Below, one piece after another: positions 9,201 through 21,200 of a stretch of DNA of 64,000 bases. The notes below the pieces were generated by a model. That model was not told the origin of the DNA. It ran no database searches and worked only from the letters and a program-made list of their open reading frames with translations. Source of the DNA: Diphasiastrum complanatum (Eukaryota; Streptophyta; Lycopodiopsida; Lycopodiales; Lycopodiaceae). Location: positions 25,575,039-25,639,038 of the forward strand of contig CM055097.1 of assembly GCA_029204225.1 (NCBI GenBank), read 5' to 3'. The position numbers and the translations under genes are program-made. Numbering within the stretch: position 1 is the first letter of the stretch; each line of letters begins with the position of its first letter.

Positions 9201-12200
9201 GATGTGGGGAGACCGAAGATGACAGATTGGTTAAAGATATGGAAAATGTATGGGGCAATAATGTGAGCAACTGGTTTTAGGAAGTCCATACTTAGGAGGT
9301 CAACATCAGTGGCTTTTTGGGTTTGACCAATTTGGATGGCATTTTCAACCATGGACGGGGTAAAGAGGGTGAATTTTGAAGGGCGTGGGGAAAGAGAAAT
9401 GGAAAGAAAGACAACTGTATAAAGCTTAGTAGCATAATTTATCCATGATTCAATAGCAATAGGAGCGGGTTATTAAGGGTTTTTAGAGAACATCCGCCAA
9501 AAGAAATGGGAGGATGGGGAGGCAATAGCATCAACAAGTTTTTGTCCCAAGGACTGGAGATAAGCTGTCTTTTTTTTTCAAAGTCCCTTTGTGATATTCT
9601 TTGTTTCAAGGCTAGGGTGTGAGGAGAGTGGTATCTAGCGTATACAACTTGTTTATGCAGTGAGAAGCACTCTGTATCATACCATTTGTTGTGAGTGCGT
9701 TTATGTGAAGGAACGGTTTTCGAAGGATAGGTAGTATTGGCAGATTGCAAAAGAGACTGAGATAAAAAGATAGCTTGTTGGTCAACTGAGGAGGTGAAGG
9801 GGAAGTCTTGGAGAAAAGTAACTAGGGACTCGGTGTAAAGGGGCAAACCAGATGGAGAGAAAACCGGGCGATGGTGATGAGTGGGACGGTGTGTTGTGGC
9901 TGTGGTACTATGATGACCAAGGGATAGAAGTAGGAGGGAGTGATCCGAAATGATAGGAGGTATAATGCGAAAGGTATGAAGAGAGAGAGAGAGAGAGAGA
10001 GAGAGAGAGAGAGAGAGAGAGAGAGCTTTATTGATGTCTGGGAATGCCAAAAGGCATATAGAATGAAACCGTTCATCTCAAGTGTGATAGTCTGTACAGG
10101 AGCATAAACATGTCTCCAAGATCAAAATCAAAATAAACTAGACTAAATCAATCAAAGAGCTAGTCTTGCTCTCCCAAGTGAAATCTCTGCATACACACAC
10201 ACACACACACAAGAAGAAGAAGAAAGCAGGGCGTTTCAAAAAGCCCCTAAAAATAAATTTTCCCACCAGTGTTTACCAGTGTAGAACGTATCCGGAACCC
10301 AGTGCGCATCACATTTTGAAAGTACTGCCCCTCACATAAAACTCCAACAACCTGCAAAGAACAAGCAAAGCCTTAAAATATGCCCAAATCTATTGCTCTT
10401 CCAGCCTACCATATGTATAATGCATTAGAGCGAATTAAACTGGTGACTATTCTGTTATCAAGGCAAATGGTGAGTCGGTGACCCAATTTTCTAACTTCAT
10501 AAGAAAACTAACCTTCAGAGTTGTGTTGTCCACGAATCACGACAAAGCACCATAGAAACAGATAAATTCTCAATTTCTAAGTGACAACTACTGATTTTTA
10601 TGATACAAACTTCTAAAGAACCTCACTCACCACACCAAGGAAGATTGATGCAGCATAAATGTATCCTTTCCAAACCGGTTCCCCATTTTGCATCGACTGC
10701 CAAACAAGCACCAAAATTTCATGGTCACAGGAGAATGCCAGTTGTATGGTCTCAAAAGATCAAGCATCATAAAGACACTTGTACATCACGGCATGATTCT
10801 TTATTATTGTTCCAACTTCAAGACTCTAGAATTCCAATATCGGAAGTGAATCATATCATGCATCATCTATGCATAACTTTCAAAACAAGGCCTAACAAAA
10901 ATCAATAAACTGACTTCATAGAGCACAATGTCACCCTCCTTATAGCTAACAGAAAAACTCCCACCAACAGGGTATAGACATTAAGTGAGGCATATCATAT
11001 CTATAATTCACACAACTTTCCAAAGAAAGGACTTCAATCTCCCAATTATTCTAGCAAGTAAAAAGCCCATCTGTAACCAAAGGCTTTACTAGATTATTCC
11101 TAGCATAGCTCTGTACAAAGAATTTCTGGATTTAGGTAGATACCTGCAAGAGAAAGCCTAGAAATACAGGCCCCACAAACTGAGAAAGGTCATTGCCAAT
11201 CTGCAAAAATTGTTTTACAAATAGCTGAGATTTGCACATTTTCAACAAGCCAAAACTATAAAACACAGAACAGCCTAACAAAGTTTAATGAAACTCTCTC
11301 TCTCTCTCTCTCTCTCTCTCTCTCTCTCTCTCTCTCTCTCTCTCTCTCTCTCTCAGCTGAAAACAGCAATAGCCTCCCTGGTCAACGAGAGGAGCTTATT
11401 ACAGTCCAAATCGTATCACTGGAACAGTCCATTGGAGATTATATATAAGCAGGCTACATCCTCAGATTCTACCACCACAATGATTCGTGAGCTGGAAAGT
11501 AAGATTGGAAAGCAGAAAGAAGAGACCCTCTCTTGGGAGAAGAAACGCACGAAACCGAGCACTCCTACCTCTTCAGTCATCTCAGCTACCATTTCAGAAG
11601 AAAGATCTCGAGAGCAAAATGCCCTAGTTAACTCCTACTTTTTAAGAGTTCGGTCCAACCACTCCAGATGAATGACCCAGTACCCCATGCCAAAGTTAAG
11701 CGGAACTCTCTGAGGTCCAATGCTAACTAATCTATATAATTAAAACTATTTTAGAGAGAGAGTGTAAACATACCTGTGTTACACTACCTAACTAACCTGT
11801 GTCACAGTACCTACCTACCTACGTTCAAAAAAAACAGCATACACAAAGTCTGTCTTTCTCTCTCTCTCTCTCTCTCTCTCTCTCTCTCTCTCTCTCTCTC
11901 TCTCTCTCTCTCTCTCACACACACCATGGTACCTCCTCGCGCCATCCCTGCTCGCCGGACCTCTCACTCCCCTACCTCCCTGCCATCTCACTCCCCCCCC
12001 CTCATTACCACACTCCCCCCCTCGCTAACACCCCACTCCCCCCCCTCGTTGCCACCTCACCCCCCCCCCCCCCCCCGCTGATGGCACACCCCCCCCCCAC
12101 CCCCCCGCTAATGGCTCACCTCACACTCCTCCCTCTGCGTGGCAACAGGTCCTACCCGCTCTTGCCCGCCGATGTCTACTCCCATTCTTTCTTCCGATTC

Positions 12201-18200: not shown

Positions 18201-21200
18201 AGGCTAGATCTTCCTAGTATGGTGATGTGGCTACTTTCTTCCAGTCATGGGGCTTCTCAATGCTGGATCTCCCACAGGAAACTCATGCATTTATCAGACA
18301 ACAGTTGTATCGTAGCTATTGCCACATAGTATGGGATCGTCCTGATCATGACAGGGTCAAGCTTACCTTTTATAGTGCACATATGTTACGCAGAGACAGT
18401 CTGGGACTTCCTATTAGACTTTTATATCTATCTCTTCCTCTTTCTTTCGGGCTCCGATATAGGTTGGGCCAGTTACGAGTCTCTTCGCACCAACTTGTTA
18501 TCGAGACCGGCACATATTCAGGCATTTCGAGAGAGCATCGGATCTGCCAGGTATGCACAATGGTGTAGTGGAGGATGAGTTCCATTTTATCTTCACATGC
18601 CCTACATACTATGAGATATGAAGTCGATATCATTGTTTATATCGGGACATCCCCATTACCCTCAGTACCTTTTTGGAGTATCAGGATCCCAAATGTGTTG
18701 GCCTTTTACTACGAGAGATGCTTACGTTGAGAGCCTCTTTGATACCGTCGGAAGATACTACTGATTATAGCCAGCATCTTATCACTAGCTTCTTTCAGAA
18801 GCGTGAGCGCGATAACCTATCAGATGATGAGGTAGTCATACCGGTGAGGGCTAAGGCCCAGCGTACTCAGCCACCACCTCCTGCCAGACACGAGTCTCCA
18901 GAGCTCCTCGACACCAGCCACGGATCACAGCTTCTATGGGTATCAGACGTTTTTTTCGGGACTGATAGTTTATTCTTCCTTCTCCCCTCAGCAGAGCAAG
19001 AGGTTAAGCTCTTGCAACTGTACCCTCTTTAGAGCTGGAGGTTAAGCTCTTATAGGCTTTTTATGATTCTATATTGGATATGTCTTTAACTAGCTAGAGA
19101 GATTTCTATATTGTTTTTTACACTTAGACTAGCGATTTTTATGTTGTTCGACATGGCTAGTGTTCCTACGAGATATGTACTTATTTCTTCTGTCTTATGT
19201 GCCCTTGGCCACCCAACAGACATTAATATAATCTCTCCTCTCTCTCTCTCTCTCTCTCTCTCTCTCTCTCTCTCTCTCTCTCTCTCTCTCTCTCTCTCTC
19301 TCTCTCTCTCTCTCTCTCTACGACCAGAGTGGTGGCAGCTATACTTGTCATCCTCATAGTGGTGGTCGTAATGTTGTTGATTACCTCACGGGGTCACCTT
19401 CATCCATTCCTCTCATTCACAACTTCTATATCTCTCCCACCACTCTCTCTCTAATCAGCATAGCGCTCTAAAAAGAATCCCTTGCCTCCTTACGTCACTC
19501 TTTTCCGCACAACAAACCACTGGAGTCTCGGGCTGCCTTCCCCACCACTTCTCTCATACTGCTACAACTTTGGCCTTTCCATCTAAACCTCACAAAAACA
19601 AACCAGCTCATCTGCGATCACCTCAACCTTTCCATCCACCATTGTACGACGCGGAATGCCGCTCCCTTCACCACACTGTCACACATGCTCGTTTCCATGA
19701 CCCCCATCTCCTTCACTCCTCGCGGCAAGTGTACAACCGCACACTTCGCCGCATCTCCGAGGGAAACCGTCTTGTGAACCTCTTTTTCAGCTCCTCTCCT
19801 GGTGCCTTTTGGCATGAATTAATCCCCCGTGCTCGGCCCCCTCTCCTAGACGACCTACATACCTGGACTGACTATGCTACCCAGCTTTACACTATATCCA
19901 CCGATATGCCAATTTCCATCTCTCCTCGACCTTCAGACTTCACCCTCTTCACCCCTAATTTGGTCCGGGCAGCAATCAAAAAATTGAAAACCCATCGAAC
20001 TAGAGACATTGAAGATCTTGAATCTGCGCTATTGGGCTTGGTGACATTCTGATCGCTATCCTTCTCTATGCGGGGTACTAGTCTCTCATACTAGAGAGGG
20101 CTTACAGAGACAGCTGGATTGCTTACACCTTTTCTAGTTTAGGGGTGAACCTCTTGAAGACCAAAATCATGGTCTTCAATACCTCTTGGGTTTCATGCAC
20201 GTCAGGAGCTTACCTTTGATGAACAGCCTCTAGAGGTGATTTCTTCATATACTTACCTTGGCGTGCTCTTTACTGGTCCTACTTTCAGTATGAGACAGGC
20301 GGCTACTTCTAGACTTGAGAAGAGTCATTCTTCCCTGGTCCAGTTGCAAAGATTCTGCTTCCGTAAGTCTATTCGGGATGCCCCAAGTAAGTGCAAACTT
20401 TTTGACACCATCATCACCCCCTCAGCCATGTATGCAGCAGATGGTTACCACATATTTGATGTGTACTCTTATTGGTCTTATATATGCCTTTTGGCATAGA
20501 AAAGACATTCATAAAGCTCTCTCTCTCTCTCTCTCTCTCTCTCTCTCTCTCTCTCTCTCTCTCTCTCTCGTTGTTGTTGCTGCTCCGCCCTTCTCCATCG
20601 TTGCTGCTGCTCCGCCCTTCCTCCATGGCGCCTAAGAAGAAGGGGGGTGCCCCTACGCCCCCCCCCTTCCCCCCTTATTGATCACATCTCCCCCTCCATC
20701 ACTGACACTGTCAGTGATGGAGGAGAAGTCCCCTCCATCATCAACGATGGAGGGGCTGCGGCCATCTTCACCTCCAGCGATGGAGGTGCTTCCTTCATCG
20801 CTGGCAGCAAATGAGAGTTTGGATGAGCAAGCTAGAAGGGCCAAAAAAGCTTTCAACATTAGAGTAAGAGGCATTGCCAACGAAGGAAAACCAAGAGAAG
20901 ACGCTACAAATTTACTTGTTTCCAAGTTATTTCACGTTGCTGATGGTTTTGATACAGCATGGCATAGTAAGTTTGATGACAATGTTTTATATATCAAATT
21001 TCTTTCTCTTCAACAACGCAGTGCAGCCCTTTGACTTAGGGCAAAGCTTAAAAGCACCTTCATTTATATGGATGATGATTTGACAAACACTCAATGGTTG
21101 GCAAGAAAAAAGACTATTCAAGAAGCAAAAGAAAAAGGACAAAGGGTTGTTTTTATCGACGGCAAACCGAGATATTTCGATCTCCTCTCACAATAGGAAC

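Follow-up and report, generated by a model that had tools for sequence, protein, structure and literature searches.

Long interspersed nuclear elements (LINEs) that combine (TC)n specificity with an apurinic/apyrimidinic endonuclease (APE)-type nuclease are known from animals. Kibi elements, which Kojima and Fujiwara reportedly described in 2004, are said to be (TC)n-specific Tx1-clade LINEs of fish, and members of this clade have two open reading frames (ORFs) and no RNase H. Here, we analyze LINEs of the lycopod Diphasiastrum complanatum (assembly GCA_029204225.1; 1,744,706,496 bases in 5,176 contigs), centering on a stretch of 64,000 nucleotides on contig CM055097.1 (C6 in our numbering; positions 25575039–25639038), hereafter the window. 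The LINEs in this window very probably represent several related two-ORF families with an APE-type endonuclease that would use target-primed reverse transcription and enter mainly (TC)n/(GA)n arrays, the TC strand corresponding to the sense strand of the element. They resemble Kibi in having an APE-type endonuclease and a (TC)n target but differ in that the host is a land plant and several deep families share the habit. From Kibi, (TC)n is already known as a target of APE-type LINEs; the present case adds a land-plant host and the sharing of this target by several families.

Among other described systems, the Togen LINEs of fish are (TG)n-specific relatives of NeSL, and target-specific lineages besides Tx1 and R1 encode a restriction-like endonuclease, according to the available part of PMC4640811; Togen and the present families thus share a dinucleotide microsatellite as target but differ in the nuclease, which is APE-type here. 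Plant L1 elements of the Stringent type, found in maize and sorghum, have a conserved 3′ hairpin with compensatory changes (PMC3747384). The accessible portion of that paper names no site preference and describes plant L1 elements as mostly having poly(A) tails, whereas the tails here are TC, TTC, or TTTC. The genome of the fern Ceratopteris contains 23,635 L1-Tx1 elements; PMC6890710, as far as its text is available, mentions no target preference for them, and the word "microsatellite" is absent from its main text. Proteins from Ceratopteris and Adiantum fall in the same 35-member reverse transcriptase (RT) clade as the LINEs of the window, although they are not necessarily those L1-Tx1 elements. 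Titles and the beginnings of abstracts of the papers listed, a set from which most subscription papers are missing and which thus cannot prove absence, yielded no microsatellite-targeting LINE in plants; what these papers do describe is microsatellite-associated miniature inverted-repeat transposable elements of pineapple (PMC8449440) and microsatellites as probable targets of transposable element insertions in general (PMC3547029).

We recognized 17 named LINE copies in the window (A–G and I–R), where the first-pass annotation, made from the sequence alone, had claimed about 19 LINE pieces. These copies and one unoccupied array are given below, with TC34 and similar symbols denoting arrays of that many bases, EN the endonuclease, UTR an untranslated region, and LTR a long terminal repeat.

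1–382, minus strand: copy A, endonuclease fragment; 5′ edge C13, then TC34 (383–416)
4680–4888, minus strand: copy B, 93 bp of 3′ UTR (4763–4855); TC83 on the 3′ side, TC33 on the 5′ side
6990–10025, minus strand: copy C, element 7010–9979; flanks TC20 and TC46; 702-codon RT frame 7244–9352
10026–10225, minus strand: copy D, 3′ piece; 3′ end on the TC46 common to C; 5′ edge in TTC/TG repeats (exception)
11294–11660, plus strand: copy E, TC61, then 5′-truncated ORF1 fragment; no 3′ end recognized
11849–16291, plus strand: copy F, near full length (11917–16128); flanks TC60 and TC163
16292–16577, plus strand: copy G, 3′ piece; TC163 at 5′; 3′ tail of (TTTC)n and short TC
16861–17948, plus strand: copy I, element 16921–17844; TC60 at 5′; 3′ tail (TTC)n, then TC78
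17949–19319, plus strand: copy J, RT C-terminal part (17949–19231); flanks TC78 and TC82
19320–20569, plus strand: copy K, endonuclease to 3′ end (19320–20516) with internal deletions; flanks TC82 and TC53
20570–21436, plus strand: copy L, 5′ UTR, ORF1, and part of EN; TC53 at 5′
23195–23859: copy M, 3′ part 23261 to about 23717 on the minus strand with its 3′ end on TC66; 5′ part 23727–23859 on the plus strand
24658–25736, plus strand: copy N, TC array on neither side (exception); tail (TTTC)n
31965–32019, plus strand: free TC array (55 bp) within an intron, without a detected LINE; a target left unoccupied
33220–36798, plus strand: copy O, no TC at 5′ (exception); TC23 at 3′
36776–40493, plus strand: copy P, TC23 at 5′; internal deletion; LTR element inside (38146–39722); belongs to the family of C
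40495–47556, plus strand: copy Q, ORF1 and beginning of EN, joined to the end of P with no TC between; split by a Ty3 element
61934–64000, plus strand: copy R, TC51 (61934–61984), 5′ UTR, ORF1 (62073–63089), and EN part of ORF2

A contact was counted when a sense TC array of at least 20 bp lay within 30 bp of a 5′ end or 40 bp of a 3′ end; the 3′ ends of E, L, P, and Q and the 5′ end of M were excluded, leaving 16 5′ ends and 11 3′ ends that could be assessed. Twelve of the 16 5′ ends contact a sense array (random mean 0.135, maximum 3 in 20,000 trials), a count that carries the caveat that the 5′ limits of 5′-truncated copies were placed at the array edge, and 9 of the 11 3′ ends do so (random mean 0.119, maximum 3 in 20,000 trials), which agrees with the earlier claim that most copies have an end on a TC array. 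Contact is at 0 bp in 19 of the 21 cases, the 3′ ends of I and J lying at 26 and 6 bp, and homology to relatives restarts within about 5 bp of the array in B, E, I, J, and K by BLAST and in C by eye. Fifteen of the 16 TC arrays of at least 20 bp in the window touch a LINE end, and TC is on the sense strand of the LINE in all contacts, with no antisense contact found. The 5′ edges that lie on TC fall in the 3′ UTR, RT, endonuclease, ORF1, and the full 5′ end, bearing out the claim that the 5′ edge is on TC wherever the element happens to start. The phase of the 5′ junction was set aside as too weak an argument: C is the last base of the array in 10 of 12 copies (one-sided p 0.019).

Seven copies had been said to have TC on both sides, and this holds for six of them (4763, 7010, 11917, 16921, 17949, and 19320); the seventh, G at 16292, starts on TC163 but is followed at its 3′ end by (TTTC)n and no more than a few TC bases. 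Copy R at 61985 is an additional case, with TC51 before it and, just outside the window (stretch L029), (TTTC)n and then TC74 after it. Two exceptions on the 5′ side had been pointed out, at 24658 (N) and 33220 (O); both stand, and D near 10225 and Q at 40495 join them. The 3′ exception is the copy A locus outside the window, where A is joined to an ORF1-only piece that lacks a TC array at its 3′ end.

The background frequency of TC arrays was surveyed in 26 arbitrary 10-kb stretches (260 kb) in which LINEs were detected by BLAST. Arrays are common, 25 being found (23 after merging split ones; 0.77% of bases), yet 18 of the 23 touch no detected LINE, and TC arrays therefore exist without LINEs; the other five touch a LINE and lie within two stretches. 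In the sampled stretch L011, two copies, one full-length and the other ORF1-only, are flanked by TC on either side, and a third copy has its 3′ end on TC. Stretch L020 has one copy with TC on the 3′ side only and an RT fragment whose start lies on TC and which is joined to an ORF1-only element with its end on TC114; a further piece at the edge of L020 was left out of the assessment.

Young copies were collected with the endonuclease of R as query; of the 2,368 candidates, the best 40 were scored, and each of these has at least 98% identity. One match, on C511, is probably a duplicate of the R locus because its EN and left flank are both 100% identical to those of R. Junctions of this R family were read at eight other loci, those on C10 being two duplicate loci; the 5′ junction lies outside the reads at C10 (two loci) and C3, and the 3′ junction likewise at C3. 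On the 5′ side, TC51 at R is matched by 45 bp at C5, 32 bp at C7, at least 35 bp at C13, and 57 bp at C9. On the 3′ side, (TTTC)n is present at every end read, and the TC that follows it is TC74 at R, at least 36 bp at C5, 56 bp at C23, and at least 77 bp at C9. Six copies were read at both ends; each of them is flanked by 30 bp or more of TC on at least one side, and three of the six on both. Exact 3′ ends number 3,199 of the common type and 378 of the R family in the genome. The 5′ 25-mer of R occurs only once, with TC before it, and therefore could not be used for a tally; the fuller 5′ end of the C5 and C7 copies, GATGGTGGCGCCCTCC, occurs 33 times, and 26 of these occurrences have ten TC bases within 8 bp upstream (20 of 25 on C1–C23 alone), where some small contigs may duplicate chromosome loci and about one chance match per genome is expected for a 16-mer.

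The left flank of R (61634–61930) is itself a repeat with 175 candidates, 40 of which were scored: two are at 100% (R and C511) and the others show 74–83% identity. At seven of the latter loci the adjoining 120–140 bases were read, and a TC array stands at the corresponding spot in all seven. Three are empty sites (C4143, C14, and C5), in which 78, 69, and 38 bp of TC are followed by a common right flank (AAACCCTACACAAAACA...) with no LINE, so that every LINE-free paralogous site recognized carries a TC array. At C16 the TC is followed by LINE endonuclease sequence that shares 76% identity with copy Q across 54 bp, and at 90.8 Mb of C1 by what by eye is EN-RT-linker-like sequence, with an R-family 3′ end about 1.3 kb further; the remaining two were left without assignment as empty or filled. 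Nested copies should share a direction if the array strand sets that of the insertion. Among 100 listed common-type 3′ ends, all on C1, of the 3,199 in the genome, neighbors have the same orientation in 15 of 16 cases at less than 6 kb, 6 of 16 at 6–50 kb, and 31 of 67 farther apart.

The LINE-free arrays, the TC at empty sites and young 5′ ends, and the shared orientation of neighbors argue that TC is a pre-existing and strand-specific target, and the varied 5′ ends on TC and the TC-flanked solitary copies likewise favor the view of the first-pass annotation that TC is target and not part of the element. At the level of sequence, LINE-free copies of the flanking repeat carry TC, orientation follows the array strand, and TC is left on one or both sides, with copies nested in each other's arrays as head-to-tail clusters. 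Several observations weigh against this reading. The empty sites are paralogues (flanks 74–83% identical) and not orthologues, the right flank of R differs from the right flank of the repeat, and target-site duplications are unreadable within TC arrays. The C23 copy, which lies in the tail of another LINE, has just 5 bp of TC on its 5′ side, 3′ TC is short at C7 (6 bp), C13 (4 bp), and C10 (11 bp, two duplicate loci), and 7 of the 33 young 5′ ends have no TC within 8 bp. TC is missing at one or both ends of N and O in the window, two L036 copies, and the 4104 copy in L020, and an internal LINE fragment in stretch L009 is without TC. Because N, O, L036, L020, L009, and 7 of 33 young 5′ ends are off TC, the preference is strong but not exclusive, and the claim that these LINEs insert "only" into TC has to be relaxed to "mostly". 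Several of the exceptions are chimeric or lie in rearranged DNA.

With the ORFs of the window as tblastn queries, pieces of ORF1, endonuclease, and RT were found in many parts of it. The frame at 7244–9352 of copy C matches RVT_1 (E 1e-32), as expected of a LINE, and the endonuclease is of the APE type (Exo_endo_phos, E 1.4e-9). When the window is compared with itself, the LINE copies prove to be without LTRs; they start at varied internal points, that is, are 5′ truncated. In R both ORF1 and the EN frame are open, and the ORF2 frame has a stop 326 codons past the TTG at 63141; both ORFs are present in this copy, and Pfam gives no RNase H in the 702-codon RT frame, although this is a weak test. 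RT identity among copies is 38–73%, with C and P at 89%; the five long RT copies form one clade (support 0.996) within the wider clade of 35 members (support 1.0). The copies thus represent about six families of one RT clade, not the single family first proposed, and the TC habit is common to families and not a feature of one family's copies. Named LINE relatives among 120 listed of 1,535 homologues are from Adiantum, Ceratopteris, Taxus, Calypogeia, and Chlorella, and none of these 120 is named Tx1 or Kibi or contains dipeptide repeats (SL, ER). The predicted EN structure has an APE fold (predicted local distance difference test score 86), with human LINE-1 EN among the best structural matches, tied with other APE-type chains. 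Residues Y115, D152, and N154 are invariant in 24 proteins and D239, D263, and H264 nearly so, presumably at metal- and DNA-binding positions. Searches gave no ORF1 homologues at E 0.001 among the candidates scored, no match to EN in the PDB by sequence, and no relatives in IMG/VR. At the end of ORF1, TAGGGATTTGGG is kept in F, Q, and R (13009, 47378, and 63087). In R, ORF2 continues in frame past the ORF1 TAG with no stop until the endonuclease, which makes stop-codon readthrough possible there; ORF2 is not in frame in F and Q, and the structure around the ORF1 stop codon is nothing special (z −0.9).

The 3′ end of the elements is conserved and can be exemplified by that of copy F.

16096–16128, plus strand: hairpin ATGCC-TTTT-GGCAT, then ATTAATAAAG, then (TC)n

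Ten of the 11 3′ ends could be aligned ungapped, N being excluded for a loop one base shorter. The 5-bp stem is paired in 96% of cells, and two pairs have changes on both sides (G-C/A-U); neither the covariation score nor the percentage paired was reached in any of 500 shuffles, and slid versions score far lower. Two counts do not stand out from the shuffles: the number of pairs changed on both sides was matched or exceeded by 318 of 500 shuffles and the number of pair types by 498 of 500. The element terminates 18–35 bases past the hairpin, in several copies with AATAAAG, and TC, TTC, or TTTC follows; the two 3′ ends that lack a long array, those of G (16565) and N (25736), both finish in (TTTC)n. 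None of the 11 window 3′ ends has a poly(A) tail, a trait of flowering-plant L1. The hairpin fits the stringent recognition of the 3′ end proposed, in the available part of PMC3747384, for certain plant L1 elements.

We propose that the ORF2 endonuclease, as the source of the TC specificity, would nick the GA strand, and that the freed GAGA 3′ end would pair with the pyrimidine tail of the RNA (TC, TTC, or TTTC) and prime synthesis by an RT that may recognize the 3′ hairpin, the element 5′ end then joining the upstream TC. The array would persist after insertion and thereby allow clusters such as F to L. TC could instead be merely the element's own RT-made 3′ tail, with random insertion and 5′ TC arising from landing behind another tail. 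Many 5′ arrays do double as the tail of an upstream LINE (C/D, F/G, I/J, J/K, K/L, and O/P), and R-family tails open with (TTTC)n in all 3′ ends read. However, the solitary copies B and R and the C5 copy have upstream TC with no LINE recognized beyond it, and the TC at paralogous empty sites largely contradicts an origin as tail; landing in tails so frequently would in any case amount to a target preference, and we regard this explanation as very improbable.

A less remote, though still unlikely, alternative is that the endonuclease needs just a short pyrimidine motif of a few TC units and that long arrays result from later slippage, as the 4–11 bp of 3′ TC in some young copies and the 5 bp at the 5′ side of C23 might suggest. 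The empty sites, however, already hold arrays of 38–78 bp, TC amounts to 10 bp or more at 26 of 33 5′ ends, and the concentration on arrays would go unexplained, short motifs presumably being far commoner outside them. It has also been reported for plants and human, in the parts of PMC12477314 and PMC3547029 available, that mobile elements are associated with microsatellites, so that arrays or open chromatin might be a "landing pad" favored by all such elements. The contacts described here are strand-specific and exact to the base, and the Ty3 element (approximately 40851–47072) and the LTR element (38146–39722) of the window are away from TC arrays, which leaves little room for this explanation.

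ORF1-only elements were seen at L011:4279–5646 (minus strand), L020:5247–6358, and L036 at approximately 5198–5866 (minus strand); they consist of ORF1 and a 3′ UTR with the same hairpin and tail as the LINEs, and have no ORF2. Identity between the L011 and L020 copies is 71% across about 950 bp, so that these elements seem to form an established nonautonomous family. HAL1 elements are ORF1-only relatives of mammalian L1; the L011 and L020 elements are similar in being ORF1-only with the 3′ end of an autonomous LINE but differ in being in a plant and at TC arrays. LINE fragments are joined to ORF1 with no TC between at 40493/40495 (P/Q), L020:5246, and L036 at approximately 5866–6048 (A/L036), and such chimeric junctions could come from template switching during insertion. 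Copy M (23261–23859) has a 5′ inversion, familiar from L1 twin priming, and copy I has an internal direct duplication of about 130 bp at 17150–17412 (97% identical). A G-rich minisatellite at 16578–16860 (minus strand) was rejected as a LINE copy and left uncounted, its ORF1 likeness being confined to low-complexity sequence. The Ty3 element lies inside ORF1 of copy Q and has a 1,592-codon frame; its 361-bp terminal repeats are 100% identical, which argues for a recent insertion. Its 120 listed homologues include no close relative with a name. The short LTR element inside the RT of copy P has 493-bp repeats that are 96% identical. Two free arrays, L015:7113–7147 and L035:5528–5658, have left flanks that are alike by eye (CATTTCCTTTGTATT...CTAATAAAAC) and perhaps belong to another repeat carrying or targeting TC, and arrays pass directly into (AC)n at L011:4214, L016:5605, L021:3027, and L024:9679.

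The host gene in the window is an ABCC gene on the minus strand, with translated exons at approximately 5.2, 6.6, 10.3, 10.65, 28.7, and 31.8 kb whose best match is plant ABC transporter C family member 2 (E 2.3e-70). Copy B sits alone within an intron of this gene, and the stretch of about 18 kb between the exons at 10.65 and 28.7 kb houses copies E to N.

We give an even chance to the broader view that an old vascular-plant LINE lineage has kept strand-specific (TC)n targeting through many family splits. As an array would survive insertion, each would be a self-renewing landing site, growing one-way clusters and long introns, with ORF1-only elements riding along; if this is true, long introns such as the 18-kb ABCC intron grow in this way. 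With thousands of copies and near-identical members, these families may offer a system for studying how an APE-type endonuclease gains dinucleotide specificity, whether long microsatellites act as safe havens, and whether LINEs have a part in the spread or lengthening of microsatellites.

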